Assembly: GCA_902765035.1 (NCBI GenBank)
Contig: CACWYF010000005.1
Coordinates: forward strand, 1 to 16,756
Source: an uncultured Eubacteriales bacterium
GTDB lineage: Bacteria; Bacillota; Clostridia; Peptostreptococcales; Anaerovoracaceae
Reading direction: 5' to 3'
DNA length: 16,756 bases
Shown: one piece after another, positions 1-16,714 of the stretch
How positions within the stretch are numbered: the stretch's first letter is position 1
How the letters are laid out: every line of letters starts with the position of its first letter
Made by a program: the position numbers and the translations under genes
Notes under the pieces: generated by a model
What the model was told of the DNA's origin: nothing
Seen by the model: only the letters and a program-made list of their open reading frames with translations
The model's database searches: none

Positions 1-111
1 ATGGGCTGGACGGATAACGGGACAAATATCTGGCTGTACACCCAGAATGGAACGGATGCTCAGAAATGGGTGCTGAAGGAAGCCGGCGATGCTGCGGGAA
101 CGGATGTGGAC
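1..111 (+). CDS. Ricin-type (QxW) beta-trefoil lectin repeat fragment, partial at both ends
   Basis: Plus frame 1 reads through a stretch containing DNGTNIWLYTQNGTDAQKW at residues 5-23, the typical pattern of a ricin B-type lectin repeat ending in the QxW motif (QKW here). Such repeats bind carbohydrate in secreted glycosidases and adhesins of Clostridia. The match fades by about residue 30. The frame then runs into sequence that is clearly the antisense of a methyltransferase gene and stops at the TGA at 160-162. The ATG at base 1 is probably just the window edge, not a start codon. No ribosome binding site, upstream part or C-terminus is visible. The true boundary lies somewhere between about 85 and 112. 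The lectin identity rests on one repeat only. Confidence 0.65.
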
Positions 112-1104
112 GGTGAAGACAGGAATGTCGCAGCCGGTGCTGACAATGTATCCGTTAGGTGAGTCCGCGCAGTCGGCTATATCTCTCATGACTTCTTCAC
201 GGACCTCATCAGGTGTACCGAGCATCATTGTGTTGATCGGATCGACGTTGCCTATAATAGGCACTTTGTCTCCGCCCAGTTCCTTGGCTCTGAGAAGAGG
301 CACTTTAACATCGACACTCAGCATGTCGCATCCTGATTCGAGCATGGCTTCAGTGATCTTGTTTGTATTGCCGCAGATGTGATAGCCCATAGCTACACCG
401 TGCTTATGGATCGCAGGTGCAAGCTCCTTGGTGTAAGGCAAAACGAGTTCTCTGTACGCCTTCTCGCTCATGATATCGCCCGATGCCACCGGGTCGCAGA
501 TGAAAATGTCCACGCCGCACTTAGCGAACTCCTCGCTGACAGCTATAAGAGCGTCAGTCGAGAATCTCAGCAGCTTGTGAACGAGCTCAGGCTGTTTTCT
601 CGTTGCTATGAGGAGCTTGGAGATAGGATAAATGCTGGAAGCCGCAGTCATAGGGCCAGTGAGGCTGGCGCTTGTTCCGACCACATCTCCCATCTGCTCG
701 ACCAGCATCTCGCATGCAGTGCAGCAGAGATCGATCCACGGATCGTTCTTCCTGAGCACGCATTCAGGATCAAGGTTATCTACATCTTTAAGGTCTTTCA
801 GAACATGCTCCACTATAGGCGGAGCTGTGTTCTCAGGGTCTCCAAGGATCGTTCCGGCGGCCTGTCCTATTCCGTGAAGACCGTATTCGATCGAAAGACC
901 GTCAAGTCCGAGCAGCTCATATGCCCTCTTCTGCACCAGAACCTGATTCTCTGCTGAAAGTCTCTTGAATCTGTTCTTCTCGCATATAAGCCTTGGTCCT
1001 ACCGAGTCGATCATCGGCATAGCAGGCAGACGGTCGACTTCCTTTCCGTCGAAATATGCCGCCATACGCTCATTTGAGGTCATCTGTTCTTTTCTAACTG
1101 TCAT
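112..1104 (-). CDS. UroD-fold corrinoid methyltransferase (MtaA/CmuA-like), 3' end lost
   Basis: About 331 codons are recognisable from the ATG at 1102-1104, which has GGAGG 5-6 bases upstream. The protein begins MTVRKEQMTSNERMAAYFDG and belongs to the uroporphyrinogen decarboxylase superfamily branch of zinc methyltransferases, which move a methyl group to or from a corrinoid protein. The zinc site is intact: a His-x-Cys (GYHICGN, near 370-385) and a late Cys (STGCDIP, near 121-141). The N-terminal arginine signature of true HemE (PVWxMRQAGRY) is absent, so it is not the heme enzyme. The family pattern fails after DIPVFT. The minus frame stays open to the window edge, but the remaining codons are antisense to a lectin sequence, so the last 15-25 residues are replaced. 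It is last in the visible operon, 15 bases after the DUF1638 gene. Confidence 0.88.
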
Positions 1105-1119
1105 TTTTTCCTCCTGCCC

Positions 1120-1851
1120 CTATAAGGTCTTTCTCCACAGCTGATCAGACTGGCTTCCGGTCTCTCCGCCGAAATCAAAGTCTTCGTCCCTTACCGGTTC
1201 TCCCGGCTCCTTAACTATTATGTCTTCATCCCATTCGCCTGAGATGAGTTTTCTCATTATTTCATTGCTTCCCGGCACTTTGCACAGTTCCAGGCCAAGA
1301 AGGTCCGCGCACTTCTCAGCGTATTCCTCAACAGGCTGAAGTTCATAGCATCCGGTATCGATCACGGTGACCTTGGTGTACGAGTCAAACATCAGCTTCA
1401 TGACCTTGAGGCCCCTTCGTTCTCCATACCTCTCCTGCGCCCTTTCGAGCATCGAGAGAAGCGCCCCCTCGTCCTTCGACCACCCTTTGGTCAGGTACAT
1501 ATTCCCTGCTTCGAGGAGATTGCGCTTCTGCCTCTTCCCGGTGCAGAGCATCATGTTGCAGCAGTCATCGAACCTCGGCATCGCAAGCGCAGCATGCTCT
1601 GTGTGCCATCCGCTCGCTCCTTTGCCGCAGAATCCGTAAGCCAGAATCACAGTATCCGCTCCGTCTGCTTCTGCTCTGTTTATCTCGTTCTGTATCACTT
1701 CGCGGAGCTCATCAGGATCATTGTGATACCCTCTCTCCATCCAGCGGACTTCGATATCCCCGCATCCAAAATGATCGAAGACAGCATTGATCTCATCTTC
1801 GATCATCGAACATGCTATGAGTATCTTCTTTCCCTGATACATTCCGTGCAT
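1120..1851 (-). CDS. DUF1638 domain protein of the corrinoid methyltransferase operon
   Basis: The 243-residue protein resembles the DUF1638 family, which is often encoded beside corrinoid methyltransferases in methanogens and acetogens and has no settled function. It starts with a beta-strand/Cys element (KILIACSMIEDEIN, residues 9-22, Cys14). An AYGFCGKGASGWHTEH segment follows (residues 71-86, Cys75, His83, His86), then a DDCC pair (Cys97/98) and a TGCYE motif (Cys168). The Cys/His clustering suggests metal or cofactor binding, which is inference. There is no signal peptide, so it is probably cytoplasmic. The acidic C-terminal tail (about 205-230) looks disordered. The ATG at 1851 is used. 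Its ribosome binding site is weak (AGGGA about 12 bases upstream), so translation may depend on the gene 32 bases upstream. An in-frame ATG at 1842 has an even poorer upstream sequence. Confidence 0.75.
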   Translation of the reverse strand: MHGMYQGKKILIACSMIEDEINAVFDHFGCGDIEVRWMERGYHNDPDELREVIQNEINRAEADGADTVILAYGFCGKGASGWHTEHAALAMPRFDDCCNMMLCTGKRQKRNLLEAGNMYLTKGWSKDEGALLSMLERAQERYGERRGLKVMKLMFDSYTKVTVIDTGCYELQPVEEYAEKCADLLGLELCKVPGSNEIMRKLISGEWDEDIIVKEPGEPVRDEDFDFGGETGSQSDQLWRKTL

Positions 1852-1883
1852 TGGTATCTCTGATCCCTTTCCCCGTCTTTGTC

Positions 1884-2759
1884 CTACATCTCCTTCATTA
1901 CTATCTCGCGGAACTTTCCGTGTGACAGCTTAACACCTACGTTCTTGATGCATACCTGTCCGCCGATCTTAGCGGTGCCCTTCATCTTCAGCATAGCCTC
2001 AAGGAAGTCAATGCCTGGTTCCAGCTGATACTCCTTAAGCTCGGCATGACCTGTGTCAACAAGAGCATATGTGAACTTAGGGCACAGCAGGAATATGCAC
2101 GAATCATCCATGATCTCACTGACTTTTCTCATGAACGGATCATAGAAGTCCTCTACCGCATTAGCAAGGAACTTCGGTCCGAGTATGTCAAGAGCACCTG
2201 CTGAATCAGAGAAAATGAAAACATCAACTCCGGCCTTCTTTCCGTTCTCAATATATCTTAGAAGCTGCTCTGAGAATTTATCGAAGACCAGCTTCATCTT
2301 CTCTCTGTCCTTGCGGTACGCCTTGAATACAAGTCTAGGCTCCATCAGCGCATTGAGAATCGTGAACGGGCCTGTCACCTCAAGGCAGACGGTCTCACCC
2401 TCGCTCTTCATCTCAGCGCAGGCATCCAGCACCTCATGAATGCGCATTTTGCCGAAATCAATATCCGGCAGCGCCAGCACTTCATCCATGTTCGCGCAGA
2501 TCGGGTCCTTGGCTCTCGGTCCCGTATTGGAATCCCCGTAGTTAAGAACTGCACCCATGGCCTCAGCCTCAACGGTCCTGCAGAAAGGAAGGAGCACAAA
2601 ATCCGAGTTGTCGTGCTTCTTGATGGCCTTTGCCAGGGTCTGCATCGTGCCACTGTGCATGTATGCATCCGGGAATTCAAGTCCGAGACCCGAAGTCACC
2701 TCATCGCTTATGCCAACCGAGTTTGAATAAGTGCATTTGTATTCTCTAATGTCTGCCAT
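1884..2759 (-). CDS. Shortened UroD-fold methyltransferase paralog with incomplete zinc site
   Basis: The protein has 291 residues from the ATG at 2757-2759. GGAGGGG lies 8 bases before that codon, whereas a GTG at 2768 would sit inside the Shine-Dalgarno sequence, so the ATG is preferred. It aligns by eye with the 341-residue UroD-fold protein at 3599-4624: PFCRTVEAEAMGA matches PFCMSVEAEALGA, and FSDSAGALDILGPKFL matches ISDPSGTGEILGPKFF. The zinc His-x-Cys is LLC here (Leu224, Cys226). The chain ends about 35 residues before the place of the third ligand Cys. It also lacks the usual N-terminal NERLIKILKGEKVDR segment. It may be a catalytically dead subunit, or bind ligand or corrinoid without methyl transfer. 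Codon use and a good ribosome binding site argue that it is an expressed gene and not a decayed one. Confidence 0.82.
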   Translation of the reverse strand: MADIREYKCTYSNSVGISDEVTSGLGLEFPDAYMHSGTMQTLAKAIKKHDNSDFVLLPFCRTVEAEAMGAVLNYGDSNTGPRAKDPICANMDEVLALPDIDFGKMRIHEVLDACAEMKSEGETVCLEVTGPFTILNALMEPRLVFKAYRKDREKMKLVFDKFSEQLLRYIENGKKAGVDVFIFSDSAGALDILGPKFLANAVEDFYDPFMRKVSEIMDDSCIFLLCPKFTYALVDTGHAELKEYQLEPGIDFLEAMLKMKGTAKIGGQVCIKNVGVKLSHGKFREIVMKEM

Positions 2760-2815
2760 TTTATTCACCCCTCCAGGTTATTTACCGAAATCATTACAGC
2801 ACTCACTGCTGCATT

Positions 2816-3592
2816 TTATCTGAACGGATCCTCGTCAAAGAGGTCCTCTCTGTTGTCATTATTATGTCCGTATTCGAGCATCAGCGCAGTGATCTCGACA
2901 CGGTTTCTCTCGGCCGACTTCTCAAGGTAGTCAGCCAGAGCATCAGCTGCTATGAGTCCGCGCTTCAGCATGTATCTCACAGCCTCTGCATTGCGCCTGT
3001 TGATCGCAAGGTCAAGGAGGTTGCCCTGTCTGTCGCGGGCAAAATCATCGATGATCCTTCGGCCGGTCATCTCATTTTCGTCAGTCAGTGTCTCATCCGC
3101 GTTCTCCGCGCAGCGCTCCATATACGTAAGAACGGCAGCGTATCTTGCGGCAGGCGGCAGCATCTTAAGTTTTGACGGGCTGATGACGATGTCTTTAATG
3201 TTCCTGCATCCTGAGAAAGCTGTCCTGTCTATCTTCAGGACAGAGTCGGGTATCTCAAGTGTCTGAAGAGCGTGGCAGCTCTCGAACATCTCGGCACCTA
3301 TCATAAGTATGCCCTCAGGCAGGCTTATCTTCTTAAGCTTCCAGCAGTGCTGGAAGAGTCCAGAGCCGGCGCTCTCAACTTTTGACGGCAGTCTTATCTC
3401 CTCAAGTGAGTAACACATCCTGAAGGCATAATTGCCTATGTGCTCCACGCTGTCAGGGATCTCAAGCACGGCAAGATGATCGGCACCCGAGAAAGCAAGA
3501 TCCTCTATATACCGGATATGCTGCGGCACACTAAAATGCACCGCAGCATCCTCATATCTTATAAGCCTGTCTCCGTCAATATTTACTGACAT
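2816..3592 (-). CDS. Cytoplasmic BspA-type leucine-rich repeat protein with ankyrin-like C-terminus
   Basis: The 258-residue protein has about five LRR_5/BspA-type repeats of roughly 23 residues between positions 25 and 140 (for example LEIPDSVEHIGNYAFRMCYS and LPEGILMIGAEMFESCHALQ). After a charged linker, residues 188-245 form helical repeats resembling ankyrin units (GNLLDLAINRRNAEAVRYML, then an EITALMLEYG-like helix). The tail is acidic. No signal peptide or cell-wall anchor is seen, unlike most BspA-type surface proteins, so it is probably a cytoplasmic interaction scaffold. AGGAG stands 9 bases before the ATG and overlaps the end of the preceding methyltransferase gene (6-base gap), so it is translated as part of that operon. 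Its role there is unknown. Binding of one of the methyltransferase components would be one possibility. Confidence 0.85.
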   Translation of the reverse strand: MSVNIDGDRLIRYEDAAVHFSVPQHIRYIEDLAFSGADHLAVLEIPDSVEHIGNYAFRMCYSLEEIRLPSKVESAGSGLFQHCWKLKKISLPEGILMIGAEMFESCHALQTLEIPDSVLKIDRTAFSGCRNIKDIVISPSKLKMLPPAARYAAVLTYMERCAENADETLTDENEMTGRRIIDDFARDRQGNLLDLAINRRNAEAVRYMLKRGLIAADALADYLEKSAERNRVEITALMLEYGHNNDNREDLFDEDPFR

Positions 3593-3598
3593 TTACAG

Positions 3599-4624
3599 TT
3601 ACTCCTGTGATCCGAATGTCCTTACAGTCTTAAGCACTTCCTGAACGTTGCCAAGCGGCGAACCCATTCCGAGTCCGCATGCCGGCGAGATGATGTCCGA
3701 GCCCTGGTTGTAGCAGTTCTTCGTCAGCTTCTCAACCGTTTTGCCGTCCTGCATCTCGATAGCAAACGTACTTACATTGCCCATGATGACCTTGTCCGGA
3801 AGCTGCTTCTTCGCCTCACGGATCGATACGACAGCATCGAAGCTGAACGCATCGCTGTGGATCTTTGCCACCTTGTCATATACAGACTTCATCTGGCCGC
3901 AGATGTGGACGATGGTTCTTGCACCTGCTGCAGCAACAGCATCAACTACCTTGTTGATGTATGTTACAGCGTATTCGTCGAAGAACTTAGGTCCGAGGAT
4001 CTCTCCTGTGCCGCTCGGATCGGAGATAACGATGACATTGGCACCGGCCTCGACCTCGGCAACACCGAATCTTATCAGCTGCTCTGTAACGAACTCCATG
4101 TACTCATGAGCCAGCTCTCTCTTCTGGCGGAGCTGCTTGTAGTATCTTGTCGGCTCCATTACCGAGCTTGCTACGCTGACAGGTCCTACGAGGTTGCCGA
4201 TGATTGGAACATCGTGAGTCTCCTCCTTGAGGATCCTGATCGCATCGAGAACGACTTTTGCCCTTCCCGAATTCAGGTCCATCGGGCTCAGCTTCTTATA
4301 GTCCTCGACAGTGTCAATTGCATATCCTGTGATATGCGGCTCGAAGAGCTGCGAGCCCATCGTGCAGGTCGCGCCGAGAGCCTCAGCCTCAACGGACATG
4401 CAGAACGGAACGCCGTAGTTCTCAAAGCATCCCTGATCGACGATAGCCTTCGCGAGGTCAGCCATCATCCTTGCATCAGTGTGAGCTTCAGGAAGGTATA
4501 CACCTGCAACATCCTGCAGCTCCTTGGTGACCATGTTCATCATGCCGCCCGGGCAGATGCATGCAGGCCTGTCGACCTTCTCACCCTTAAGTATCTTAAT
4601 AAGTCTTTCATTAGCAGTAGTCAT
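3599..4624 (-). CDS. UroD-fold methylcobamide methyltransferase (MtaA/CmuA-like)
   Basis: The protein has 341 residues from the ATG at 4622-4624 (MTTANERLIKILKGEKVDRP). GAGG lies 7 bases upstream. A longer frame to 4750 would overlap the preceding gene and has no family similarity in its extra 42 residues. It has the normal family length. The zinc site is complete by position: His240 and Cys242 in TIVHICGQM, and Cys316 in ISPACGLG. A strand with an acidic end (NVIVISDPSGTGEILGPKFF, 196-215) forms the usual active-site region. Relatives move methyl groups between a corrinoid protein and a thiol or tetrahydrofolate-type acceptor, or demethylate a donor. The sequence does not show which. It starts 10 bases after the reductive activator gene, so the two are co-transcribed and probably act on the same corrinoid protein. 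HemE activity is unlikely because the HemE N-terminal signature is missing. Confidence 0.9.
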   Translation of the reverse strand: MTTANERLIKILKGEKVDRPACICPGGMMNMVTKELQDVAGVYLPEAHTDARMMADLAKAIVDQGCFENYGVPFCMSVEAEALGATCTMGSQLFEPHITGYAIDTVEDYKKLSPMDLNSGRAKVVLDAIRILKEETHDVPIIGNLVGPVSVASSVMEPTRYYKQLRQKRELAHEYMEFVTEQLIRFGVAEVEAGANVIVISDPSGTGEILGPKFFDEYAVTYINKVVDAVAAAGARTIVHICGQMKSVYDKVAKIHSDAFSFDAVVSIREAKKQLPDKVIMGNVSTFAIEMQDGKTVEKLTKNCYNQGSDIISPACGLGMGSPLGNVQEVLKTVRTFGSQE

Positions 4625-4634
4625 AGTAATTCCT

Positions 4635-6437
4635 CTATTTAAATGATGGGAAAATAAGGCACTCGGAGAGCAGCCTCTCATAGTTCTCGGTCGCGCCAAG
4701 CTCAAGGTAGTCCATTTCGTGAGCCAGCGCTTCCATTTCCCTCTTGACATCCGATGACATCAGCGCCATGTACGCTCCTGTCTTGGATGTATTTCCGACG
4801 TACTCAATCTTGTCTTCGACTTCGAACGGAAGAATGCCTGTACCTGTGATGCTGTCCGCAGGAAGATGCGCTCCGAACTGTCCCGCTATAAGAACGCTGT
4901 CAAGATCTTCCATGCCGATACCTGCCTTCTTCATGAGAGCCATGAAGCCTGACAGGATAGCGCCCTTTGCCAGCTGTACCTGTCTGACATCTCCCATCGT
5001 GATACACAGAGGCTCATAGCCGTCCGTCATCTTAAATGACCTCTTGCCCTCTTCATCTACCAGTATGTATTTCGATCTGTAGTCATCTGCAGGGAACTTG
5101 TCTGCCTTGACGAAGGCTCCGGTCTTGCGTACGATTCCGGTTCTCAGTAGTTCCTTGGTGACGGTCAGGATACCGCTGCCGCAGATGCCTGCCGGTTCAC
5201 AGTCTCCTATAATCTTGAGGTCGAGTCCGTCCTCTCCGATGTGTATGTCCTCGATAGCACCCTCAGCCGCACGCATTCCTGAGCTGATATTCATTCCCTC
5301 CAGAGCCGGGCCTGCCGCGCACGAGCATGACATGAGCCTGCCGTCAGCAGCCAGGACGATTTCGCCGTTGGTTCCGATATCTATGAAAATTGTGTTTCCC
5401 TTGCGGTGTTTAAGGTCGCATACGTAAGCGCCGGCTACGATGTCCGCTCCGATGTATGCGGAAACTGAAGGCAGGCAGTAAAGCCTTGCTCCCGGCGCTG
5501 CCTTGAGGCCGATTTCTGATGCTCTCATGTCTTTGGCTTTTGCGAAGACAGGAGCGAATGGAGCCTTGCCAACAGGGGTTGCATCAACACCTACCAGCAT
5601 GTGCATCATGGTGCAGTTTGCTCCGACTGTGATCTCATAGATTTCATCAGTGCTGACAGAGAATCTGTCGCAGATCGATCCGACCATCTTGTTGATCGAG
5701 CCTACGATTGCCTTGCGAAGCTTGATGATGCCATCCTCAGGATGCTCGATCTCGTATGTGATTCTCGTAAGAACATCGAGGCCAAAGTGCTTCTGCGCAT
5801 TGATCTCTGATGCGTGACCGAGCTCTTCGCCCGTGTTCATGTCTACAAGAGAGCAGACTACGGTAGTCGTTCCGATATCTATGGCAACTCCGAACCTTCT
5901 GCCGGTTGTGTCTCCATGTTCAAGTCCGACGACTCTGCCGTTGTGCAGAACGGCAGTGTATTCGCCCGGCTTCATCGAGTCAATGCCGAGTGCGGTATAG
6001 TCCATGCCCTCAGCGCCGGTCTCTTCCAGAATCTGATCTTCGAACGGAGTCTGGTCATCGAGGGTAGGCTTGTGTATTGTAACAGGCATCTTGGTGATAT
6101 CTGTATTGAATTCAAAATCAGGCAGATAACCTGATGCCAGTACGTCGTGTTTCTTTTCCTTCTGCAGGGATTCGACTTTAAGGTCTCCTGCAGGAACAAC
6201 AAGACAGCCTAGCCTGATACCAGACTGGGCTTCGTCCTGTTTAAGTATTCCAAGTTCTGTTTCTGTGATCTCACCGGCGTCTCCCTCAAGGATCCTGACC
6301 TTGCACTTGCCGCATATGCCTTTGCCTCCGCACGCATTATCCACAAATATGCCTGCGCCGAGCATCAGGTCTGCGAGTGTCTGCCCCGGTGTGAATTCGA
6401 TTGTTTTGCCCTGCGGCATTACCGTTAAAACCGGCAT
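4635..6437 (-). CDS. Corrinoid activation protein: 2Fe-2S ferredoxin plus ASKHA ATPase (RACE type)
   Basis: The 600-residue protein is of the bacterial RACE type, which uses ATP and an iron-sulfur centre to return oxidised Co(II) corrinoid protein to active Co(I). The N-terminal plant-type 2Fe-2S domain has Cys36, Cys42, Cys45 (CGGKGICGKC) and Cys78. A linker of about 100 residues follows. The acetate/sugar kinase-Hsp70-actin type ATPase (DUF4445 region) begins near residue 180, with phosphate loops DIGTTT (187-192) and DIGTNGE (353-359) and an AGPALEGMNISSG segment. The C-terminal FGAHLP motif is also present. Length agrees with the family. It starts at the ATG at 6435-6437 with GGAGG 9 bases upstream. 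It lies between the corrinoid protein and a methyltransferase gene, which supports the role. No C-terminal Fe4S4 domain like that of archaeal RamA is present. Confidence 0.93.
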   Translation of the reverse strand: MPVLTVMPQGKTIEFTPGQTLADLMLGAGIFVDNACGGKGICGKCKVRILEGDAGEITETELGILKQDEAQSGIRLGCLVVPAGDLKVESLQKEKKHDVLASGYLPDFEFNTDITKMPVTIHKPTLDDQTPFEDQILEETGAEGMDYTALGIDSMKPGEYTAVLHNGRVVGLEHGDTTGRRFGVAIDIGTTTVVCSLVDMNTGEELGHASEINAQKHFGLDVLTRITYEIEHPEDGIIKLRKAIVGSINKMVGSICDRFSVSTDEIYEITVGANCTMMHMLVGVDATPVGKAPFAPVFAKAKDMRASEIGLKAAPGARLYCLPSVSAYIGADIVAGAYVCDLKHRKGNTIFIDIGTNGEIVLAADGRLMSCSCAAGPALEGMNISSGMRAAEGAIEDIHIGEDGLDLKIIGDCEPAGICGSGILTVTKELLRTGIVRKTGAFVKADKFPADDYRSKYILVDEEGKRSFKMTDGYEPLCITMGDVRQVQLAKGAILSGFMALMKKAGIGMEDLDSVLIAGQFGAHLPADSITGTGILPFEVEDKIEYVGNTSKTGAYMALMSSDVKREMEALAHEMDYLELGATENYERLLSECLIFPSFK

Positions 6438-6469
6438 TATGTTATTCCTCCAAAGTGATAGTTTACTGA

Positions 6470-7123
6470 TTACTCGATTCCGACGAGCTTCTTGGCCACC
6501 TCAACAGCCTCGACTGCATTTCTTGAATATCCGTCAGCTCCGATATCCTCAGCATACTTCATTGAGATAGGGCTTCCGCCTACCATTACCTTGAAGTTGT
6601 CTCTGATGCCCTGCTCCTTGAGCTTCTCGATGACAGTTCTCATGCCAGGCATGGTTGTTGTCATCAGTGTGGACATCATGATGAGGTCAGCGTCGACTTC
6701 CTTCGCCTTCTCAATGAAGCTGTCGATAGGAACGTCTCTTCCGAGGTCATACATCTCGAATCCTGCAGTCTCCATCATGATCTTGACGAGGTTCTTGCCG
6801 ATATCGTGCGTGTCTCCCTCGATAACGCCGATGACTGCCTTCTTCGAGTCGCCCATGCTTGCGTCTTCAGGAAGGTGAGGTCTCAGAACGTCGAGTCCTG
6901 CGTACATTGCATCAGAGCAGAGCAGCAGGTCAGTTACGAAGTACTCTTCCTGATCGTACATGTCACTTGCGCGGTTCATTCCGTCAACAAGTCCGTGCAG
7001 AATTCCGTCGAGAGGATCATATCCTGCTTCGATGTACTCTTCACATACATCAGCGATCTCTTCGTCTTCCATCTCGAAGACGTAGTCAGACATTTTCTGC
7101 AGTAATTCTTCTTTAGTTGCCAT
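6470..7123 (-). CDS. Corrinoid protein of a methyltransferase system (B12-binding, MtaC/MtbC-like)
   Basis: The 217-residue protein has the standard two-part layout of methyltransferase corrinoid proteins. A helical cap (about residues 1-90, with the DGMNRASDMYDQEEYFVTDL segment) is followed by a Rossmann-like B12 domain. The cobalt-ligating DxHxxG motif is GDTHDIGKN (Asp104, His106, Gly109). The nucleotide-tail contacts are MMSTLMTTTM (Ser151) and VMVGGSPIS (Gly182-Gly183). It carries the methyl group on cobalt between methyltransferases. AGGAG lies 10 bases before the ATG. The gene is followed after 32 bases by its reductive activator. A candidate promoter and two inverted repeats stand directly upstream, so it may be transcribed more strongly than the methyltransferase gene before it. 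Only one corrinoid protein is visible for four UroD-fold proteins. Confidence 0.95.
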   Translation of the reverse strand: MATKEELLQKMSDYVFEMEDEEIADVCEEYIEAGYDPLDGILHGLVDGMNRASDMYDQEEYFVTDLLLCSDAMYAGLDVLRPHLPEDASMGDSKKAVIGVIEGDTHDIGKNLVKIMMETAGFEMYDLGRDVPIDSFIEKAKEVDADLIMMSTLMTTTMPGMRTVIEKLKEQGIRDNFKVMVGGSPISMKYAEDIGADGYSRNAVEAVEVAKKLVGIE

Positions 7124-7160
7124 AAGTTACTTTCTCCTGTTTCTTTTTAGTATCTTCAAT

Positions 7161-7189
7161 ATATTAACTTCAATTGCTAACGTTTACAA
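7161..7189 (-). promoter_or_regulatory. Candidate promoter of the corrinoid protein gene
   Basis: On the minus strand TTGTAA (7184-7189) and TAATAT (7161-7166) are separated by 17 bases, each matching 4 of 6 positions of the sigma-A consensus. The start would fall near 7154, leaving a leader of about 30 bases with AGGAG at 7134-7138. The match is modest and the surrounding sequence is AT-rich, so chance is possible. Confidence 0.35.
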
Positions 7190-7207
7190 ATAGAAAAACA
7201 CCGTTAG
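7177..7207. repeat. CTAACG / CGTTAG dyad over the candidate -35 region
   Basis: A perfect 6-base inverted repeat, CTAACG (7177-7182) and CGTTAG (7202-7207), has a 19-base spacer. The candidate -35 hexamer lies between the arms, so a dimeric regulator could bind here. The right arm touches the larger inverted repeat that starts at 7207. The short arm length makes this tentative. Confidence 0.35.
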
Positions 7208-7259
7208 ATATTCATATATTCTGAATGGTGATCCTTCACTTGAAGAATATGTGAATATC
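7207..7259. repeat. 15-base inverted repeat (14/15) between methyltransferase and corrinoid protein genes
   Basis: The arms GATATTCATATATTC (7207-7221) and GAATATGTGAATATC (7245-7259) are complementary at 14 of 15 positions. The enclosed 23 bases contain a second small stem (GTGA, loop TCCT, TCAC). The structure begins at the very next base after the stop codon of the upstream methyltransferase gene (TAG at 7260-7262). On the minus strand it is followed by seven bases and then GTTTTTC, so it could act as a weak, leaky terminator or an mRNA-protecting hairpin. The AT-rich stem and the spaced T-run make strong termination doubtful. Confidence 0.7.
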
Positions 7260-8408
7260 CTATTCCTTGGTCTCAATCACGTCGGTCAGTGCCTCTTCAG
7301 CGATCCCGAGCGGCAGGCAGCCCTTTCTTGCGCCTCTGCCGTACTTGCGTGTTGCAAAGATAAATGCGTCAAAGTTCTCTCTCGGTGTTCCGATAGGTAC
7401 CTGGCATCCTGTGCCGAGTGTATATCCGTTCTCTGCCTCGGATCCCTTGATGATGCATGTTTTGCATGTCTCGATGACATCGTCTATGGTCCCGTTGAGC
7501 ATAACATCTACAGGTGCCACGTTGCCCATGAGTCCGAAGTGAGGCCCCATGATGTCTCTTGCAGCTGCGAGGTCTTCCATGTTGTCTACGCTGAAGTTGG
7601 CTACCTTGAGCTGGCTCATCTCATCCCACAGAGGCGAAGTCTTTCCGCAGATATGGATTCCAGGCTTCCTTCCGAGAGCCTGTGTCAGTCCCTCGATGAG
7701 CTCGATCAGATGAGGCTCTGAGAACTTCTTGTAGTTTCTCTTGCCGAGGATGTCAGAGCAGCTTACAGGGTCGCAGATGGTGCATCCGCCGCCGCCGAAT
7801 TCGTCAGCGAACATCTCTGCGTATGCGACTGTGTAGTCAACGCACCACTTCAGAAGGTCGTGAAGTTCTTCAGGGTGTCTTACTGTATCTCTCAGAATCT
7901 TCTCTACCGGTCTGATGCAGGAAGCGTTGGTGAAAGGACCTGCTACCGGCATCGCGATACCCATCTCAGGGAATGCTGCCTTGAGGTCTATACCTCTCTG
8001 CAGGACTGACAGGAAGACCGGATTCTTCTTAGGGTTATCCTTCATGAGAGTCTTCAGCTGGTCATAGTCCTCAAGAACAGGCTTGATGACACGGTCGATA
8101 CCTACTTCAGGGAAGTAGATCTCTGAACCGACAGCCTGCGCCATTGTTCTCAGTCTCAGTCCGGATGCGAGTCCGCCAATGTTGAACTCTTCCTTTCTTC
8201 TTTTTATGACATCGATATGTACCTTGACGTCATTTCTCCACTGAGCAGTAGTATATCCGAAAATGTTGGCCATAGCCTCTTCATTACTCTGGATCGAGAA
8301 AGGTATATGGTCTACCTCTTCACCTGCAGCGTATTTCTGCATTCTTTCCCCGTCGGTCATAGTCTCAGGGTACTTTTCCATTTCACGTTTCAGTTCTTCA
8401 TAAGTCAT
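7260..8408 (-). CDS. UroD-fold corrinoid methyltransferase, first gene of the cluster
   Basis: The protein has 382 residues from the ATG at 8406-8408 (MTYEELKREMEKYPETMTDG), with AGAGG 7 bases upstream. An in-frame codon at 8438 would add ten residues unlike the family. It is a UroD-superfamily zinc methyltransferase with His252 and Cys254 in GIHICGKTS and Cys335 in LGTGCQVPIG. It is the longest of the four paralogs. It carries a distinctive EFGGGGCTICDPVSCSDILG segment (204-222), where the others have simpler loops, and a basic C-terminal extension. The GLASGLRLRTMAQAVGSEIYFP segment is typical of the branch containing demethylating methyltransferases, so this is the likeliest candidate to act on the methyl donor. 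That is inference. It has its own promoter and leader hairpin, and its 3' end abuts a large inverted repeat. Confidence 0.9.
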   Translation of the reverse strand: MTYEELKREMEKYPETMTDGERMQKYAAGEEVDHIPFSIQSNEEAMANIFGYTTAQWRNDVKVHIDVIKRRKEEFNIGGLASGLRLRTMAQAVGSEIYFPEVGIDRVIKPVLEDYDQLKTLMKDNPKKNPVFLSVLQRGIDLKAAFPEMGIAMPVAGPFTNASCIRPVEKILRDTVRHPEELHDLLKWCVDYTVAYAEMFADEFGGGGCTICDPVSCSDILGKRNYKKFSEPHLIELIEGLTQALGRKPGIHICGKTSPLWDEMSQLKVANFSVDNMEDLAAARDIMGPHFGLMGNVAPVDVMLNGTIDDVIETCKTCIIKGSEAENGYTLGTGCQVPIGTPRENFDAFIFATRKYGRGARKGCLPLGIAEEALTDVIETKE

Positions 8409-8436
8409 ATGAGTACCTCTTACATCTGCAAACATC

Positions 8437-8459
8437 AAAAAACATACGGCTGACGCCGT
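8437..8459 (-). terminator. Terminator-like hairpin in the leader of the methyltransferase operon
   Basis: On the minus strand ACGGC, loop GTCA, GCCGT (8446-8459) is followed by two bases, a G and six T residues (8437-8442). It lies between the -10 element at 8473-8478 and the start codon at 8408, about 25 bases before the ribosome binding site. Its position fits an attenuator or a 5' stabilising stem. The stem is only 5 bp and no alternative antiterminator pairing was identified by eye. Confidence 0.5.
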
Positions 8460-8646: not shown

Positions 8647-10149
8647 CTACAGCTCCAGCTGATCGATCTTGCGGTCGATCTCAATCTGTCTCTCGCTGAA
8701 CAGAAGCTCCTTGTTGTGCCTGAAGTACTCCTCGCATCCGTATCTGTTTATGAATGCTGCACTTGAGGCATCGGCAGTAAGCTCTGTGACGATCATCAGC
8801 ATCTCTCTGCCTTCGCCCCAGCAGCTTTCGGCGAATCTGAACAGCCCGGTGAGCTTATCCTGTGTTTTGCCGACCTGGGCTGCATGAGTCTTCACGATCG
8901 TGCTGAACTTGTCGCGTATTATGTCGAAGGACTCATTGAAATCCTTGACTCCTGAGGTCTCTGCTGCGAACTTCTCAAGTATGTCCGCAGTCCTGAGCAT
9001 GACCCTGCGCCTGTTCTGATCTACTGAGCCTGACTTTCTTCCGGCCTCAAGCCTGCTTCTCATATCTCCCGCGATCTCAAGAAGCCTATCCTGCGGAGTC
9101 TTCTCGCCCGGGTCTTCCTCTGCATAAGCCTTGAGGCATGCCCGCAGCTCATCTATCACCTTCTCCTCAGTATTGCACGCGCGGATGTCTGTCCTCACAT
9201 TGCTGAGGAGGAGTCCTATGAGTGTGTATACCTCGTCGAATCCGGCATCAGCAGCCTGGCCTATCATCTCGCCCGTGGCTTTGCCGAGGAGGATGTCCTC
9301 GACAGGATACTCCGTCCTGTACTTGTTGAAGAGGTCGTAATATACAGCGAATTCTTTGGCGGCCGCCTGATCCTGCAGGTACTGGATGATCAGGTCCTCG
9401 TCGACCTCAAGGCTGTTCTGCTCGTACAGGTACAGCATCTTGCTGAGGTCTTCCCAGCCTCTCGGTGTTACAATGCTGCGGCCGCTTACGGTCGTCTCTA
9501 CCGAGTAGAATCTGTTCCTCTTGCTCTGGAGGAAGGTCGTGACTGCCGGGTGGATCTCGGCTTTCAGTGCGTATTCTTTCCAGGTGTCGTAGTCAGCCTC
9601 GACATCGATCTTTTTGAGTCTGTCGAGTGTTACGATGTCAAAATCCCTGACGGAGTCGTTGTATTCCGGCGGGTTTCCGGCGCATGCGATGATCCAGCCG
9701 TCAGGAATGCGGTGTCTTCCGAATACCTTGTACTGCAGGAACTGGAGCATCAGAGGCGACAGTGTCTCCGACACGCAGTTGATCTCGTCGAGGAAGAGGA
9801 TGCCCTCCTTTACTCCGGTCTCTTCCATGAGCTCGTAAATGGAAGAGATGATCTCGCTCATCGTGTACTCGGTGACATCGTACTCCTTGCCGTCGTAGAC
9901 CTTGTGGCTTATGAACGGAAGTCCGATGGCGCTCTGCCTCGTGTGATGAGTCATGGAATACGAAATGATGCCGATGCCGAGCTCTGCGGCTATCTGCTCC
10001 ATTATAGCGGTCTTGCCGATTCCCGGAGGTCCGATCAGAAGGACCGGCCTCTGCTTCTCGACCGGGATGGCGTATGCCCCGAACTCATCCTTCGTGAGAT
10101 ACGCTTTGACTGCATTTCTTATCTGTGTCTTGGCTTTGCTGATATTCAT
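8647..10149 (-). CDS. MoxR-like AAA+ ATPase
   Basis: The 500-residue protein has an N-terminal AAA+ domain. Walker A is GPPGIGKT (40-47), Walker B is LFLDEIN (118-124), the sensor 1 Asn is in ACAGNPPEYN (near 159), and a following DRLKK segment carries a possible arginine finger. The MoxR-type insert is recognised in the SEIISSIYELME and HRIPDGWIIACAGNP patterns. The C-terminal half (about 280-500) is helical and charged, with no known domain seen. MoxR ATPases pair with a VWA-domain partner to remodel target proteins, often during metal or cofactor insertion (NorQ/NorD, CbbQ/CbbO, RavA/ViaA; CobS/CobT is an analogous chelatase pair). The partner here is the VWA gene 42 bases upstream. AGGAG lies 6 bases before the ATG. 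The last gene of its operon, it is followed by an intrinsic terminator. The target is unknown. Confidence 0.9.
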   Translation of the reverse strand: MNISKAKTQIRNAVKAYLTKDEFGAYAIPVEKQRPVLLIGPPGIGKTAIMEQIAAELGIGIISYSMTHHTRQSAIGLPFISHKVYDGKEYDVTEYTMSEIISSIYELMEETGVKEGILFLDEINCVSETLSPLMLQFLQYKVFGRHRIPDGWIIACAGNPPEYNDSVRDFDIVTLDRLKKIDVEADYDTWKEYALKAEIHPAVTTFLQSKRNRFYSVETTVSGRSIVTPRGWEDLSKMLYLYEQNSLEVDEDLIIQYLQDQAAAKEFAVYYDLFNKYRTEYPVEDILLGKATGEMIGQAADAGFDEVYTLIGLLLSNVRTDIRACNTEEKVIDELRACLKAYAEEDPGEKTPQDRLLEIAGDMRSRLEAGRKSGSVDQNRRRVMLRTADILEKFAAETSGVKDFNESFDIIRDKFSTIVKTHAAQVGKTQDKLTGLFRFAESCWGEGREMLMIVTELTADASSAAFINRYGCEEYFRHNKELLFSERQIEIDRKIDQLEL

Positions 10150-10191: not shown

Positions 10192-11529
10192 CTATATCCC
10201 CTCGCGCAGCTCGTCCTGCTGCAGCAATACTCTTATCGCCCACACCGGCACTGCCGGCAGATGGTAGCCGTCGTCAACGAAGACGAAGGCCGTCCTGTAC
10301 GGCGGTTTTGCCTCAGGATACGTCCCGAGTCCGTCCGTGAAATATATGAGTCCCTTGAGGTCTGAGAACGCACCCTCTTTTATGAGCCTGTCCACATAGG
10401 TGAAGACCGGTCTGAAGTCGGTGCCTCCGAGGCCTCTTATCTCCATCGTCTCAAGGTATCTGTCAAAATCCTCTGTACAGGTGATCACGGTGTCGTCCTG
10501 GATCTCCGCGTCGCACTGTATTATGTGGACGTTGATGTCACGGAAGAATGACCCCTGCTGATTCAGTATACCATATGTCCTGCGGAGGAAGGTCTGCACC
10601 TCTTCTCCCGCCACAGAGCCCGAGGTGTCTATCGCTATGACAAAATCCCTGATCCTGTGGTCCTCTCTGTATTCGAGCGGCTCTATAAGAGGCATGTTCC
10701 CGTAATGCGTCAGGCCGTAGGTGTAGTAGATGTAGTCGAACTCATCCTCGGAAGTCTTTATCTCTTCTCCCATGGCCGCGAACTTTCTGAGAAAATCCGT
10801 GTAGTCGTATCTCTCACGCGTCACGGCGCGTATGTTCTGTACGAGTGTCCCTGCAGACTCCCCGCGGACTTTGCCGAATATCTCGAGCTCCATCTCGATC
10901 TGCTTTGCGATGTTCTTCCACTGATCCTCATCGGTCAGGTTCACATCCTGTGACGGGCCGGATATGTGCTCGCGTGCCTGAGGAGCTGTGCCCTGTTTAT
11001 GCTCAGCAGCATACCAGGTGCTGTGATCGTCAGGCGAGAACAGCTCTGCCAGATAATCAAGCCTCTCTGCGGGGTACTGCATCTCTCCGAGCCATGCATA
11101 TATCTTCTCTGCAGTCAGGTGTTTTACCGCAGACTTTATCTCTCTCAGGTATTTGTGCTGCCTGTCCTCCCTGTCCGATCTTGTGCATGTGAGGCCGAGG
11201 TCGTTTATCGATGCCTCGACTGCTATATCGCAGGCCAGGTCCCATCTCTTCCTGTCGATCCTGGTGCCCACGAACGGATGCAGGAAGATGCAGTGCAGGA
11301 TAATGTGCAGGTAGTCTCTTGTAATCTCCTCACGTGAATCCCTGTATATTCTGAGAACGTGCTCCGGGGCAAAATATATGCAGTCGCCGTCTGTCGAAAA
11401 GGTCCCATCATAAACAGACCTCCTGTGCATGCTCAGCGCCACATCCATGTAGCGCAGATTCACAAGGAGCCTGTTTCTTGATATATCAAGCACATCATTC
11501 GCAAGATTCAGGATCTCTTCGTTAGCCAT
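10192..11529 (-). CDS. DUF2201 / VWA-like domain protein, partner of the MoxR ATPase
   Basis: The 445-residue protein has an N-terminal putative metallopeptidase-like domain (DUF2201 N-terminal type). It contains HIILHCIFLH (His75, His79, His84) followed by the DLACDIAVEASIND segment. The C-terminal VWA-like domain starts near residue 290, with the MIDAS motif DTSGSV (300-305), a later GGTD (about 367-370) and FTDG (about 396-399). The middle (about 150-260) is acidic and probably flexible. The catalytic Glu of HExxH is absent (H-I-I-L-H), so peptidase activity is doubtful. It probably binds metal and presents substrates to the AAA+ partner encoded next. The ATG at 11527-11529 has only a weak ribosome binding site, so coupling to the precorrin-2 dehydrogenase gene 21 bases upstream is likely. 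Confidence 0.88.
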   Translation of the reverse strand: MANEEILNLANDVLDISRNRLLVNLRYMDVALSMHRRSVYDGTFSTDGDCIYFAPEHVLRIYRDSREEITRDYLHIILHCIFLHPFVGTRIDRKRWDLACDIAVEASINDLGLTCTRSDREDRQHKYLREIKSAVKHLTAEKIYAWLGEMQYPAERLDYLAELFSPDDHSTWYAAEHKQGTAPQAREHISGPSQDVNLTDEDQWKNIAKQIEMELEIFGKVRGESAGTLVQNIRAVTRERYDYTDFLRKFAAMGEEIKTSEDEFDYIYYTYGLTHYGNMPLIEPLEYREDHRIRDFVIAIDTSGSVAGEEVQTFLRRTYGILNQQGSFFRDINVHIIQCDAEIQDDTVITCTEDFDRYLETMEIRGLGGTDFRPVFTYVDRLIKEGAFSDLKGLIYFTDGLGTYPEAKPPYRTAFVFVDDGYHLPAVPVWAIRVLLQQDELREGI

Positions 11530-11550: not shown

Positions 11551-12036
11551 TTATCTTCCGGCTTCACTGTCTTCCGGAATATCTATATAGTCGAGCAGCT
11601 TTTTGATCTTGCCTGTCGTCTCTGCAGCCAGACTGTGATCCTCACCGCTTGCAGTTACGCCCACTACGACAGGTCCCTTGCGCGCAATTCCCGGGAAGTA
11701 GAAATCGCAAAGCGACTGGTCGCCTGCGGCATTGACGAGGATGCCTCTCCTCCTGCACATGCCTGCGATCCTCACATCCGTTCCCGCATGGCCGGTCGAG
11801 ATGAAGGCTATGTCCATGCCTTCGAGGTCGTTCTCGTCGAATCTCCTGCGGTGGTATGTGATGTACCCCGAATCCGCAAGCTTCTGTATGATCGGCTCAC
11901 AGTCAGGCGCGACGACCGTGACCGAACCGGCAAAATCGAAAATATTCACAAGTCTTCTCGCAGAGATTTTGCCCGCCCCGATGAAGAGGACGTTCTTCTG
12001 CGACAGATCTACAAACATTGGAAAATACAGACTCAT
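11551..12036 (-). CDS. Precorrin-2 dehydrogenase-like protein (SirC/CysG N-domain type)
   Basis: The 161-residue protein matches the NAD-binding domain of siroheme synthase, which oxidises precorrin-2 to sirohydrochlorin (factor II), the branch point to siroheme and anaerobic cobamides. The dinucleotide loop is GAGKISARR (20-28), then VTVVAPDCEP (39-48) and the FYFPGIARKGPVVVGVTASG segment (112-131). It is short. The C-terminal domain of full CysG/Met8-type proteins is missing, leaving a dehydrogenase-size chain like SirC. The residue at the place of catalytic Asp104 of E. coli CysG appears to be Gly105, with Asp106 beside it (VNAAGDQSLCDF). GGAG lies 7 bases before the ATG. Its upstream region is the palindromic element at 12060-12182. 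It supplies the pathway fed by cobA-hemD. Ferrochelatase activity cannot be judged. Confidence 0.88.
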   Translation of the reverse strand: MSLYFPMFVDLSQKNVLFIGAGKISARRLVNIFDFAGSVTVVAPDCEPIIQKLADSGYITYHRRRFDENDLEGMDIAFISTGHAGTDVRIAGMCRRRGILVNAAGDQSLCDFYFPGIARKGPVVVGVTASGEDHSLAAETTGKIKKLLDYIDIPEDSEAGR

Positions 12037-14466: not shown

Positions 14467-15156
14467 CTATTTATTTTCCTTAGCTATTATGAGCGAGAAG
14501 TATCCGGCTTCATCCGGTATCTCCTCAAGCGAGCGGTACACCTTCTCTGTCTCCATGCTGCAGTTCTCTACTGCCTGCGCATCGTATCCCGATCTTGCAA
14601 GCATTGCCTTGACCTGAGGCATTTTGCTTGCGGACTTCATGATGGCATAGTTGCCCGGCCACTCAAGTGTCCCTTCGGTGTTGTGAAGACCCGGTATTAC
14701 ATGCAGCGGCTCATTCCACTCTGTCAGGGATATTCCAAGCCTTGCAGCTGCTGCGCAGAAAGACGGGATGCCGCTGACGAGCTCTACTTCATAACCTTCA
14801 TCTTCCAGAATTTGCTGGATGTAGCTGAAAGTGCAGTAGATGGTGGAGTCTCCGAGAGTAAGGTATACGACGTTCTTGCCCTCATCGAGATACTTCTCTA
14901 TGGTGTCTGCAGCTTCCCTGTGGCTCTTTGCGATCAGCTCGCGGTCCCTGACCATCGGCATGTATATCGGGATCAGAGTCTTGTCTGCGAGCTCTGGTAC
15001 CGCTGCAGCTGCGATCTTGTATGCGACTGCGTCCTGCGGCACCTTGCCCGGAACCGCCATAACTTCATTTTCTCTGATAAGCCTGCAGGCCTTGAGTGTC
15101 ATCAGCTCGGGATCTCCCGGGCCTACGCCTACTCCGTATGCTTTTCCTCTTGCCAT
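14467..15156 (-). CDS. cbiL: Precorrin-2 / cobalt-factor-II C20-methyltransferase
   Basis: The 229-residue tetrapyrrole methyltransferase adds the C20 methyl group from SAM, the first committed step of the corrin path in either cobalamin route. It shows the SAM-binding start YGVGVGPGDPELMTLKA (7-23) and VVYLTLGDSTIYCTFSY, which matches the LGDP-type motif in the form used by CbiL/CobI. It also has the ELVSGIPSFCAAAARLGISL segment. These, and the length, distinguish CbiL from CobA, CbiF and CbiH. AAGGA lies 8 bases before the ATG. The gene follows cobA-hemD by 22 bases, so the pathway order is kept. Whether it acts on cobalt-factor II or precorrin-2 cannot be told by sequence alone. The anaerobic setting favours the former. 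Confidence 0.93.
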   Translation of the reverse strand: MARGKAYGVGVGPGDPELMTLKACRLIRENEVMAVPGKVPQDAVAYKIAAAAVPELADKTLIPIYMPMVRDRELIAKSHREAADTIEKYLDEGKNVVYLTLGDSTIYCTFSYIQQILEDEGYEVELVSGIPSFCAAAARLGISLTEWNEPLHVIPGLHNTEGTLEWPGNYAIMKSASKMPQVKAMLARSGYDAQAVENCSMETEKVYRSLEEIPDEAGYFSLIIAKENK

Positions 15157-15178: not shown

Positions 15179-16714
15179 TTATTTTACAGCTTTGCTCACT
15201 TCTTCAAGTTTCGCGCAAAGCGATTCAAGTGTCGCCTCGTCGGAAACGCACACACCCATGCCGCAGCGTTTTGCCTCAGCCGCTGTCTGCTTTCCGATGC
15301 ACACGGCTCTCACCTTTCTGAAGTTCATGCCCTTATATGCATTTACAAAGCCTCTTACTGTCGATGCACTGGTGAAAAGCGCGAATGTATGAGGATCGTC
15401 GAATTCAGCATCTGCATCGAACCAGTCCTGGGCCACGTATTTCGTATCGTATGTGGTGACGTCATCAATGTGGACTCCCCTTACGCGCGAAAGCTCTTCG
15501 ATCAGCTCAGGGTTGCCGAGTCTTGCCCTCGGGATGAGGACTCTGTCGCCCTTCCTGAGTAGTACTGCGAGCTGTGCGCCAAGCGTCCTTCCGTCATATA
15601 CGGTCGGGATCATGTCCGGTCGGATGCCGTACTTGAGAAGCTCTCTCTCGGTCCCTTTTCCTATCGCAGCTATGCTGCAGTACGCCAGCATCCTGAGATC
15701 ATACTTCTCAAGCAGTCTGTCCATAAATACCCTGACGCCGCTCGGGCTGGTGAAAACGACCCATTCGTAGCCGCTCTTCCTGAGGCCCTTGATCGCTTCG
15801 TCGATGACCGGGTTCTCCTCCGCAGCCTCGATCCTGATGGTCGGGAGCTCTATCGCTTCAGCGCCCTTTTCTCTCAGCATCTTCGCAAGGCCTGAACTCA
15901 GTTCTCTCGGCCTCGTCACGACCGCCCTTACACCTGCAAGCGGCAGATCTTCAAGCCAGCTGAAGTCTTCAGACAGCGCCGCGACCTCACCGACAACTAT
16001 GACGGCAGGCATCACGACTTTGGCCTTCTTCGCAGCCTCAGCGAGCCCCTCAACAGTCGATGAGATTATCCTCTGCGCTGCCGTGGTACCCTTTTCGATG
16101 ACCGCAGCCGGTGTCTCCGGATCGATACCTCCGCCCATAAGGCCGTTCATCAGTACCGGAAGCGAAGATATTCCCATCAGGAATACTATCGTCCCGCCGG
16201 CTTCAGCGAGTGCGGCAAAATCTATGTCGTATGTGTGGTCCTTTCTCCTGTGACCGGTAACGACGTGCACGCTCGAGCAGTGATCTCTGTGAGTCACCGG
16301 TATCCCTGCATATGCAGGTACGGCAAAAGCGCTGGTGACACCCGGCACGACCTCGTAAGGTATCCCTTTTTTCTTAAGAAGCTCAAGCTCCTCACCGCCG
16401 CGTCCGAAGACGAACGGGTCACCGCCCTTGAGGCGGACCACCTTAAGACCCTGCTGAGCCTTCTCGAGCAGAAGCTTGTTTATATCGCTCTGCTTCATAG
16501 TATGAAGGCCGAATCTCTTGCCTACGTATATCTTCTCGGCTTCTTCAGGCATGAGCGAGAGGATGCTGCTGCCGACGAGTGCGTCATACACTACGACATC
16601 AGCCGCCTCTATGACGTCTCTGGCCTTCAGCGTCAGGAGCCTGTAGTCTCCCGGGCCTGCTCCGACAAGCCAGACTTTGCCTTTTCTGTTATGATTTGCT
16701 TTTTCCTTATCCAT
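15179..16714 (-). CDS. cobA-hemD: Fused uroporphyrinogen-III C-methyltransferase and uroporphyrinogen-III synthase
   Basis: The 511-residue protein is a fusion of two successive enzymes. Residues 11 to about 250 are CobA/SUMT. They carry GAGPGD (18-23), GGDPFVFGRGGEE (97-109), VPGVTSAFAVPAYAGIPVTHRD and GTTAAQR, and make precorrin-2 from uroporphyrinogen III. Residues about 255-505 are HemD, which cyclises hydroxymethylbilane. The HemD patterns seen are VTRPRELSSGLAKMLREKGA, WVVFTSPSGVRVF and FALFTSASTVRGF. This fusion is common in Clostridia. The chosen ATG (16712-16714) lies 18 bases after AAAGGA, which is long. The frame is open to the window edge without another ATG, GTG or TTG, so the start is likely but not certain. 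It is the first visible gene of the operon. A promoter or cobalamin riboswitch could lie beyond the edge. Confidence 0.95.
   Translation of the reverse strand: MDKEKANHNRKGKVWLVGAGPGDYRLLTLKARDVIEAADVVVYDALVGSSILSLMPEEAEKIYVGKRFGLHTMKQSDINKLLLEKAQQGLKVVRLKGGDPFVFGRGGEELELLKKKGIPYEVVPGVTSAFAVPAYAGIPVTHRDHCSSVHVVTGHRRKDHTYDIDFAALAEAGGTIVFLMGISSLPVLMNGLMGGGIDPETPAAVIEKGTTAAQRIISSTVEGLAEAAKKAKVVMPAVIVVGEVAALSEDFSWLEDLPLAGVRAVVTRPRELSSGLAKMLREKGAEAIELPTIRIEAAEENPVIDEAIKGLRKSGYEWVVFTSPSGVRVFMDRLLEKYDLRMLAYCSIAAIGKGTERELLKYGIRPDMIPTVYDGRTLGAQLAVLLRKGDRVLIPRARLGNPELIEELSRVRGVHIDDVTTYDTKYVAQDWFDADAEFDDPHTFALFTSASTVRGFVNAYKGMNFRKVRAVCIGKQTAAEAKRCGMGVCVSDEATLESLCAKLEEVSKAVK

Follow-up and report, generated by a model that had tools for sequence, protein, structure and literature searches.

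A probable type 1 mlp gene cluster with additional UroD-fold proteins in rumen and gut Anaerovoracaceae

Which methyl donor is served by a corrinoid methyltransferase cluster that contains four UroD-fold proteins and no classic substrate methyltransferase? This question is raised by a 16,756-nucleotide stretch of DNA, hereafter the window, from an uncultured Eubacteriales bacterium of the family Anaerovoracaceae (GenBank assembly GCA_902765035.1, contig CACWYF010000005.1). It forms the left part of contig C5, which belongs to a metagenome-assembled genome (MAG) that is 68% complete in 304 contigs. A preliminary description had proposed an undescribed methyl-use system with one corrinoid protein (CP), one activator and four UroD proteins, and no classic substrate methyltransferase adjoining. 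Pfam and NCBIfam scans agree with this inventory, and both the domains and the recurrence of the set in relatives bear out a corrinoid methyltransferase system run by UroD-fold proteins. The cluster type, however, is not undescribed, as the mlp gene cluster (MGC) has been reported in over 100 genera and tied to methyl-selenium and methyl-sulfur metabolism, with one Mlp2 protein assayed with selenide (Kountz and Balskus, 2023; PMC10418091). We consider it likely that the window holds a type 1 MGC, expanded in rumen and gut Anaerovoracaceae, for the demethylation of methyl-selenium or methyl-sulfur compounds.

The cluster is one co-directional run on the minus strand, transcribed in the order U4, CP, RACo-type activase, U3, LRR_5 protein, Us, DUF1638 protein and U1, where U1, U3, U4 and the short Us are the UroD-fold proteins (Table 1). 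Pfam URO-D matches fall in four open reading frames (ORFs), 1-1104, 1884-2768, 3599-4750 (258.5 bits) and 7260-8438; the third is probably over-extended, with the start of U3 near 4624. Among the ten scanned proteins (1-11529), the MttB, MtaB, MtmB and MtbB families gave no match at E<=0.001. The MTTB domain was also not found in the source genome, a weak absence given its completeness and fragmentation. Of 27 further genomes searched, 26 gave no MTTB domain either; the remaining genome (G441) has one MTTB-domain gene on contig C4, and its cluster lies on the 326,924-base contig C3.

Of the four criteria that define an MGC, the window displays what the first three describe, and what the fourth describes as far as an incomplete genome permits. 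The definition calls for genes in one direction with no divergent gene between them and gaps of at most 2 kb, and the gaps here are 6-136 bp throughout the run from U4 to U1. It also calls for the absence of a tetrahydrofolate methylase within 20 kb; none was found in the source genome, although the assembly is partial and U1 is the last gene before the contig end. In type 1 clusters Mlp2 and Mlp3 are both present, frequently accompanied by Mlp1, and the Mlps have a His-Cys-Cys (HCC) zinc site, several Mlp1 proteins excepted (PMC10418091). Read against MtaA (His-Cys-Cys), the zinc-ligand positions of the full-length proteins U1, U3 and U4 are HCC, and those of Us are Leu-Cys-Cys (LCC). Gene order in relatives and tree topology suggest that U3 corresponds to Mlp3, U4 and U1 to Mlp2, and Us to Mlp1. 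The assignment draws on the gene set, its domains and conservation, the zinc-ligand residues, the shape of the tree, co-occurrence with selD, and the lack of a pterin-binding methyltransferase in most close relatives.

The zinc site also bears on the class of donor. HCC is present in every U3-type sequence and in all but six of the U1/U4-type sequences, these six being FCC in L093, HCD in L099 and L105, and gapped at these positions in one sequence of L086 and two of L015. S-methyltransferases keep the HCC site, whereas O-methyltransferases have carboxylates or non-coordinating residues in place of one or both cysteines (PMC10418091). Since this site, characteristic of thiol and selenol methyltransferases, is kept in all three full-length UroD proteins, its residues argue against an O- or N-methyl donor. 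Thus, among the donors suggested in the preliminary description, methylthiols agree with the site, whereas methoxylated aromatics, methylamines and betaines are a poor fit. For Us, 22 of 38 sequences are LCC (the window, L007-L025, L073 and L090), eight are HCC (L075-L078, L087, L088, L094 and L095) and eight are of neither kind. In a larger set of 121 short UroD sequences, comprising the best 120 of 508 matches plus the window, 112 are LCC, seven HCC, one MCC and one VCC, and 100 of those best 120 matches are exactly 289 amino acids (aa) long. These counts and the uniform length indicate a stable family of short proteins, and the branch to which the Us of the window belongs lacks the zinc-binding histidine.

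An unrooted tree, built by a quick method, contained 117 of 155 sequences, leaving out those under 240 aa and loci close to others (L007, L010, L011, L013, L015, L016 and L019-L023); nine long branches and three long-branch joins were flagged as unsure. MtaA is among the sequences included; ClMlp1-3, CmuA, MtvB and OdmB are not. The Us sequences form one clade (support 100), 34 of the 35 U3-type sequences fall in one group (support 87), and the U1 and U4 types lie with MtaA on the opposite side (support 96). This topology agrees with the published arrangement in which Mlp1 and Mlp3 are sisters and Mlp2 stands apart (PMC10418091). The protein at 7260-8408, U4, had been favored as the donor-side enzyme, which is plausible given its grouping with Mlp2-like proteins. 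The possibility that all four UroD proteins would prove to be MtaA-like, raised in the preliminary description as an outcome that would refute its reading, holds in part, because the best Protein Data Bank (PDB) match of all four is 4ay7, a methylcobalamin:coenzyme M methyltransferase. In the same searches CdmB matches U4 (E 7.7e-5) and U1 (E 1.5e-5) weakly. U3 scores 211.8 and 206.4 against MtaA/MtbA equivalog cut-offs of 400 (NF040654) and 600 (NF041608), and U1, U4 and Us score lower still on both models, so that all four miss the cut-offs.

A contig scan with Us as query, in which Us is present by construction, yielded 19 loci. Seventeen of these (L007-L023, several cut by contig ends) are close relatives from rumen or gut MAGs labelled Mogibacterium, Clostridiales or Clostridia; the gene set, whose recurrence the preliminary description proposed to check, thus recurs in other genomes. 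With gene labels assigned by blastp, these loci keep the order U4-CP-RACo-U3-LRR-Us-DUF1638 over whatever stretch their contigs cover, apart from L015, which has no labelled DUF1638 gene. Us, U3 and LRR are labelled in all 17, DUF1638 in 16, RACo in 15, CP in 14, U4 in 13, a fifth UroD (U5) in 12, MoxR and VWA in 11, and U1 in six, where it follows DUF1638 (L008, L012, L015, L017, L018 and L021). In L090 (G076), from another genus of the family, every gene of the set is present, LRR, DUF1638, MoxR and VWA among them, but the order is changed, and survival of the set under this reshuffling indicates that the gene association is real. L024 (Faecalicatena orotica) and L025 (Dorea) carry Us, CP, U3, RACo and U4 types together with MetNIQ-like genes, with no LRR or DUF1638 gene labelled. 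Clusters that lack Us (L085, L099 and L102) have DUF1638 homologs of 28-36% identity near RACo and U3-type genes. In Acetoanaerobium noterae (L106) and in G386 (L074, where the Us-type ORF is extended to 595 aa), the gene order is Us-U1-CP-U3-RACo. The four records of a plasmid collection include none annotated as CmuA, and a Peptoclostridium region there is not an MGC by its labels.

Further support comes from the selenium trait. In a class sample of 292 genomes, made up of the source genome and others at least 85% complete, a U3 homolog (E<=1e-40) occurs in 16 genomes besides the source. Us is present in the neighborhood of U3 in nine of these (G386, G400, G316, G253, G335, G382, G312, G272 and G285) and absent from it in seven (G218, G244, G245, G347, G379, G409 and G411). 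All nine genomes with U3 and Us have selD, versus 59 of the 282 genomes that remain when these nine and the source are set aside (Fisher p 1.4e-6, with genomes treated as independent). Among the 25 cluster-bearing genomes, selD scores above cut-off in 22, including the closest relative (L008, G434); of three cluster-less genomes in the same scan, it is present in G135 and was not found in G004 or G083. In a family sample without the source genome, selD occurs in seven of the nine genomes whose Us match is strong (E<1e-30) and in 41 of 138 others, and both exceptions (G088 and G140) carry lone Us genes. One in-frame TGA occurs in 22 of the 23 selD genes above cut-off (the gene of G382 has none), and SelD is therefore probably itself a selenoprotein in the TGA-bearing genomes.

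The acceptor side provides another indication. A Pterin_bind domain was not found in the source genome (68% complete) nor in ten of its 11 close relatives (G434-G444), the other (G443) having one 265-aa match, and MetE was not found in any of these 12 genomes. All 12 have a homocysteine methyltransferase domain, in an ORF without a pterin domain. Folate-linked acceptors thus appear unlikely, an argument restricted to the close lineage because Pterin_bind is present in 11 of the 25 cluster-bearing genomes.

From these features we infer the substrates, the direction of each step and the choice of donor-side proteins in the following scheme. U4 and U1, often with U5, would bind a methyl-selenium or methyl-sulfur compound through its selenium or sulfur atom as zinc-thiolate UroD enzymes, and the methyl group would pass to Co(I) on the CP. 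Demethylation would release selenide, for use by SelD, or a thiol. U3, which is MtaA-like, may then demethylate the corrinoid in favor of a thiol acceptor, for example sulfide or homocysteine, and RACo would restore accidentally oxidized corrinoid to Co(I), probably with help from the DUF1638 protein. Support for this chemistry comes by analogy from other organisms: ClMlp2 transfers a methyl group from methylcobalamin to selenide (PMC10418091), and sdm-like genes rise upon selenium depletion in Methanococcus maripaludis (PMC11097638).

Several observations weigh against this assignment. U3 alone does not track selenium, as only one of the seven U3-positive genomes without Us has selD, and the selD tests count related genomes as independent. 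selD was not found above cut-off in the source genome (G000, 68% complete), G436 or G446. The lone Us genes of G088 and G140 lie in genomes where selD was not found. U1 is absent from eight close loci whose contigs reach past its place, some Us matches are weak (L079, on a long branch, has 25% identity), and the Mlp names are assigned from gene order and from the topology of a tree that does not include ClMlp1-3.

Within the type 1 assignment, it is possible, though on balance doubtful, that the donor is a methyl-sulfur compound (methionine-derived, methylthiol or S-methylcysteine) and that the cluster serves methionine or sulfur salvage, not selenium salvage. MetNIQ-like genes lie beside the cluster in L009, L018, L019, L024 and L025 (in L018 the MetQ- and MetN-like genes score below the NCBIfam cut-offs), and a PatB C-S lyase lies past it in L008 (399.7, cut-off 340). 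selD was not found in the partial source genome, and a methyl-sulfur role has been proposed for the non-selenium MGC clade (PMC10418091). Yet selD accompanies the cluster in 22 of 25 genomes and in all nine of the class sample, and MetNIQ could import seleno-amino acids too. Non-selenium clusters were linked to MarHDK-like genes (PMC10418091). An assembly of UroD genes that happen to lie beside corrin biosynthesis genes would need no shared function at all, and both UroD paralogs and corrin genes are common enough that tight spacing alone proves little; the gaps are nevertheless only 6-136 bp, the same set recurs in 17 close loci, and it persists with LRR, DUF1638, MoxR and VWA under the changed order of L090. 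We rejected chance clustering and regard it as hardly credible.

We also judge it very improbable that the cluster is a new system for an unrecognized donor among methoxylated aromatics, methylamines or betaine. UroD-family enzymes do act on methoxylated aromatics or haloalkanes, MtvB, OdmB, VdmB, MtoB and CdmB being examples (PMC13222342), and CdmB is the weak match of U4 and U1 noted above. The HCC site in U1, U3 and U4 speaks against such donors, however, and 4ay7 is a better match than CdmB. Moreover, because no pterin-binding methyltransferase was found in the source genome or ten of 11 close relatives, the usual methyl transfer to tetrahydrofolate is missing there, and no MttB gene lies nearby. 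The preliminary description named an MttB- or MtaB-type gene directly beyond the left end in a complete genome as an outcome that would refute its reading. We rejected an MttB-type gene at this position, as other genes are seen there in the close loci that reach beyond the cluster (MtaB was not searched by model, and L007, L010 and L016 end too soon).

The type 1 assignment leaves room for a further, rather unlikely extension, in which methionine synthesis in the close lineage does not need folate. This cluster would supply the methyl groups of methylated selenium or sulfur compounds, and a UroD-corrinoid fusion those of a second donor; corrinoid proteins would pass both on to the stand-alone homocysteine methyltransferase, with Us, DUF1638 and the LRR-ankyrin protein as new parts that hold or maintain the complex. 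The 590-aa fusion lies on contig C62 of the source genome (L104:3229-6953), with H-A-D, not HCC, at its zinc positions by eye, near a DUF2284-like gene (also named by eye) and the 414-aa homocysteine methyltransferase without a pterin domain. Neighborhoods were fetched around homocysteine methyltransferase matches, choosing the roughly 410-aa protein where several PF02574 matches occurred, and the fusion gene lies a short way from the methyltransferase gene in the source genome and in 15 of 15 neighborhoods (L108-L122). The DUF2284-like gene is not labelled in L120, and a RACo homolog lies in between in L119, L121 and L122. In the class sample the fusion is matched in three of 292 genomes including the source, once over the UroD part only. 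This module was not met in literature searches, which included PMC7857596.

Table 1. Features of the window, with strand and supporting evidence
Feature	Position	Strand	Evidence
Likely chimeric contig end, outside the cluster	1..117	.	unlike L008/L012/L017/L018; RicinB_lectin_2 E=0.0055, below cut-off, + strand
U1: UroD-fold methyltransferase, Mlp2-like, HCC zinc site, 3' end lost at contig end	118..1104	-	URO-D 202.6 bits; 98% to L008 11606-12676; clade
DUF1638 protein, presumed helper of corrinoid reactivation	1120..1851	-	PF07796 136.8 bits
Us: short UroD, 294 aa, Mlp1-like, Leu-Cys-Cys at zinc-ligand positions	1884..2768	-	URO-D 67.3 bits; one clade, support 100
LRR_5 protein, weak ankyrin-like C-terminus	2816..3592	-	LRR_5 103.1 bits; Ank_5 E=0.0009, below cut-off
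U3: MtaA/MtbA-like methyltransferase, Mlp3-like, HCC zinc site	3599..4624	-	PRK06252 403.4 bits, cut-off 244; best PDB 4ay7
RACo/Ram-type corrinoid reductive activase	4635..6437	-	Fer2, Raco_middle, RACo_C_ter
Corrinoid protein (CP), methyl carrier	6470..7123	-	B12-binding + B12-binding_2; TIGR02370 207.6 bits, just below cut-off 215.3
U4: UroD-fold methyltransferase, Mlp2-like, HCC zinc site	7260..8408	-	URO-D 168.2 bits; 228 homologs at E<=0.001; clade
MoxR-type AAA ATPase, conserved neighbor	8647..10149	-	AAA 39.2 bits
VWA/DUF2201 partner of MoxR protein	10192..11529	-	PF09967, PF13203
Siroheme synthase N-terminal domain (precorrin-2 dehydrogenase), corrin-pathway neighbor	11551..12036	-	TIGR01470 89.3, cut-off 62.3
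Precorrin-2 C20-methyltransferase CobI/CbiL, neighbor	14467..15156	-	TIGR01467 189.3, cut-off 163.25
CobA (uroporphyrinogen-III C-methyltransferase) fused to HemD-like part, neighbor	15179..16714	-	TIGR01469 312.6, cut-off 185

Upstream of the cluster, the minus strand is transcribed in the order CobA-HemD, CobI/CbiL, an ABC transporter set, the siroheme-synthase N-domain, VWA/DUF2201 and MoxR, with 238 bp between the MoxR gene and U4; the HemD-like part has no model match above cut-off. Rfam and tRNA scans of the window found none. At the other end, positions 1-117 are unlike the 3' end of the U1 gene in four relatives, which shows that U1 is cut, and this mismatch together with the weak ricin-type lectin likeness on the opposite strand makes the segment look like a chimeric contig end. 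Past the corresponding left end, relatives carry U5 (12 of 17 close loci) and an NhaC-like antiporter (10 of 17), as well as double-cubane-like (five of 17), MetQ-like (three of 17) and other MetNIQ-like genes, with L008 having a TauB/SsuA-like/PatB set instead. In the source genome, U5 and NhaC-like genes lie on a separate contig, C157 (L103:1042-3820). The lone short UroD genes of G088 and G140 (L094 and L095) stand without a labelled CP or RACo gene across the 19 kb fetched.

In the DUF1638 protein, C14, H43, C75 and C97 are invariant among 15 sequences, and a PDB search with it gave no match. Because a DUF1638 mutant phenotype goes with that of a RamA-like activase in Phaeobacter inhibens (PMC5764234), an association repeated as a prediction in a 2025 paper (PMC12478193), this protein probably assists RACo in corrinoid reactivation, by analogy. 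The LRR protein is found in L090 as well as in all 17 close loci, and it may, like Us, have a part in this system. In L090 and in 11 of 17 close loci, of which some are truncated by their contigs, the pair of MoxR and VWA/DUF2201 genes (8647-11529) immediately precedes the cluster on its upstream side; its products might mature corrinoid enzymes, or the pair might be part of the corrin gene group. DUF1638, the LRR-ankyrin protein, the His-less short UroD and MoxR-VWA present new targets in corrinoid enzyme maintenance. More broadly, an enigmatic rumen operon is placed in a known, little-studied cluster type for methyl-selenium and methyl-sulfur turnover, for which selD co-occurrence and the absence of folate-linked acceptors in close relatives are independent support.

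Comparison with characterized systems delimits what is new. MtaA/MtbA (4ay7) is the best structural match of all four UroD proteins and U3 exceeds the PRK06252 subfamily cut-off, but none reaches either equivalog cut-off. These bacteria would not be expected to have coenzyme M. CmuA, CdmB, OdmB, VdmB, MtvB and MtoB likewise belong to the UroD superfamily and take a methyl group from a donor to a corrinoid protein, yet they work with a second, tetrahydrofolate-side methyltransferase (PMC13222342) that was not found here. The sequence comparison, which covers CdmB, gave a weak match. SdmABC, through which Methanococcus uses dimethylselenide, also combines a CP with UroD-annotated methyltransferases tied to methyl-selenide demethylation, but it is archaeal and smaller, as portrayed in citing papers (PMC11097638).

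The closest counterpart is the type 1 MGC, which shares the CP, the Ram/RACo activase, several SCMT-like UroD proteins with HCC sites, the lack of a tetrahydrofolate methylase, MetNIQ-like and double-cubane neighbors, and co-occurrence with selD; the order Us-U1-CP-U3-RACo of L106 and L074 equals Mlp1-Mlp2-CP-Mlp3-Ram of the C. ljungdahlii example (PMC10418091). The term 'leucine-rich' is absent from the main text of that paper, which was not returned by a literature search for DUF1638, and the Mlp expansion, the LRR and DUF1638 genes within the run and the His-less short UroD were not met in the open-licence papers searched, the supplements of PMC10418091 lying outside this scope. The window differs from the three-Mlp cluster of C. 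ljungdahlii in having four UroD proteins, often five with U5 in relatives, and in its order, U4-CP-RACo-U3-LRR-Us-DUF1638-U1. The type of system is thus already known, and its new elements are the four to five Mlps, LRR and DUF1638 within the run, the conserved MoxR-VWA pair, and a short UroD that in this lineage regularly lacks the histidine.

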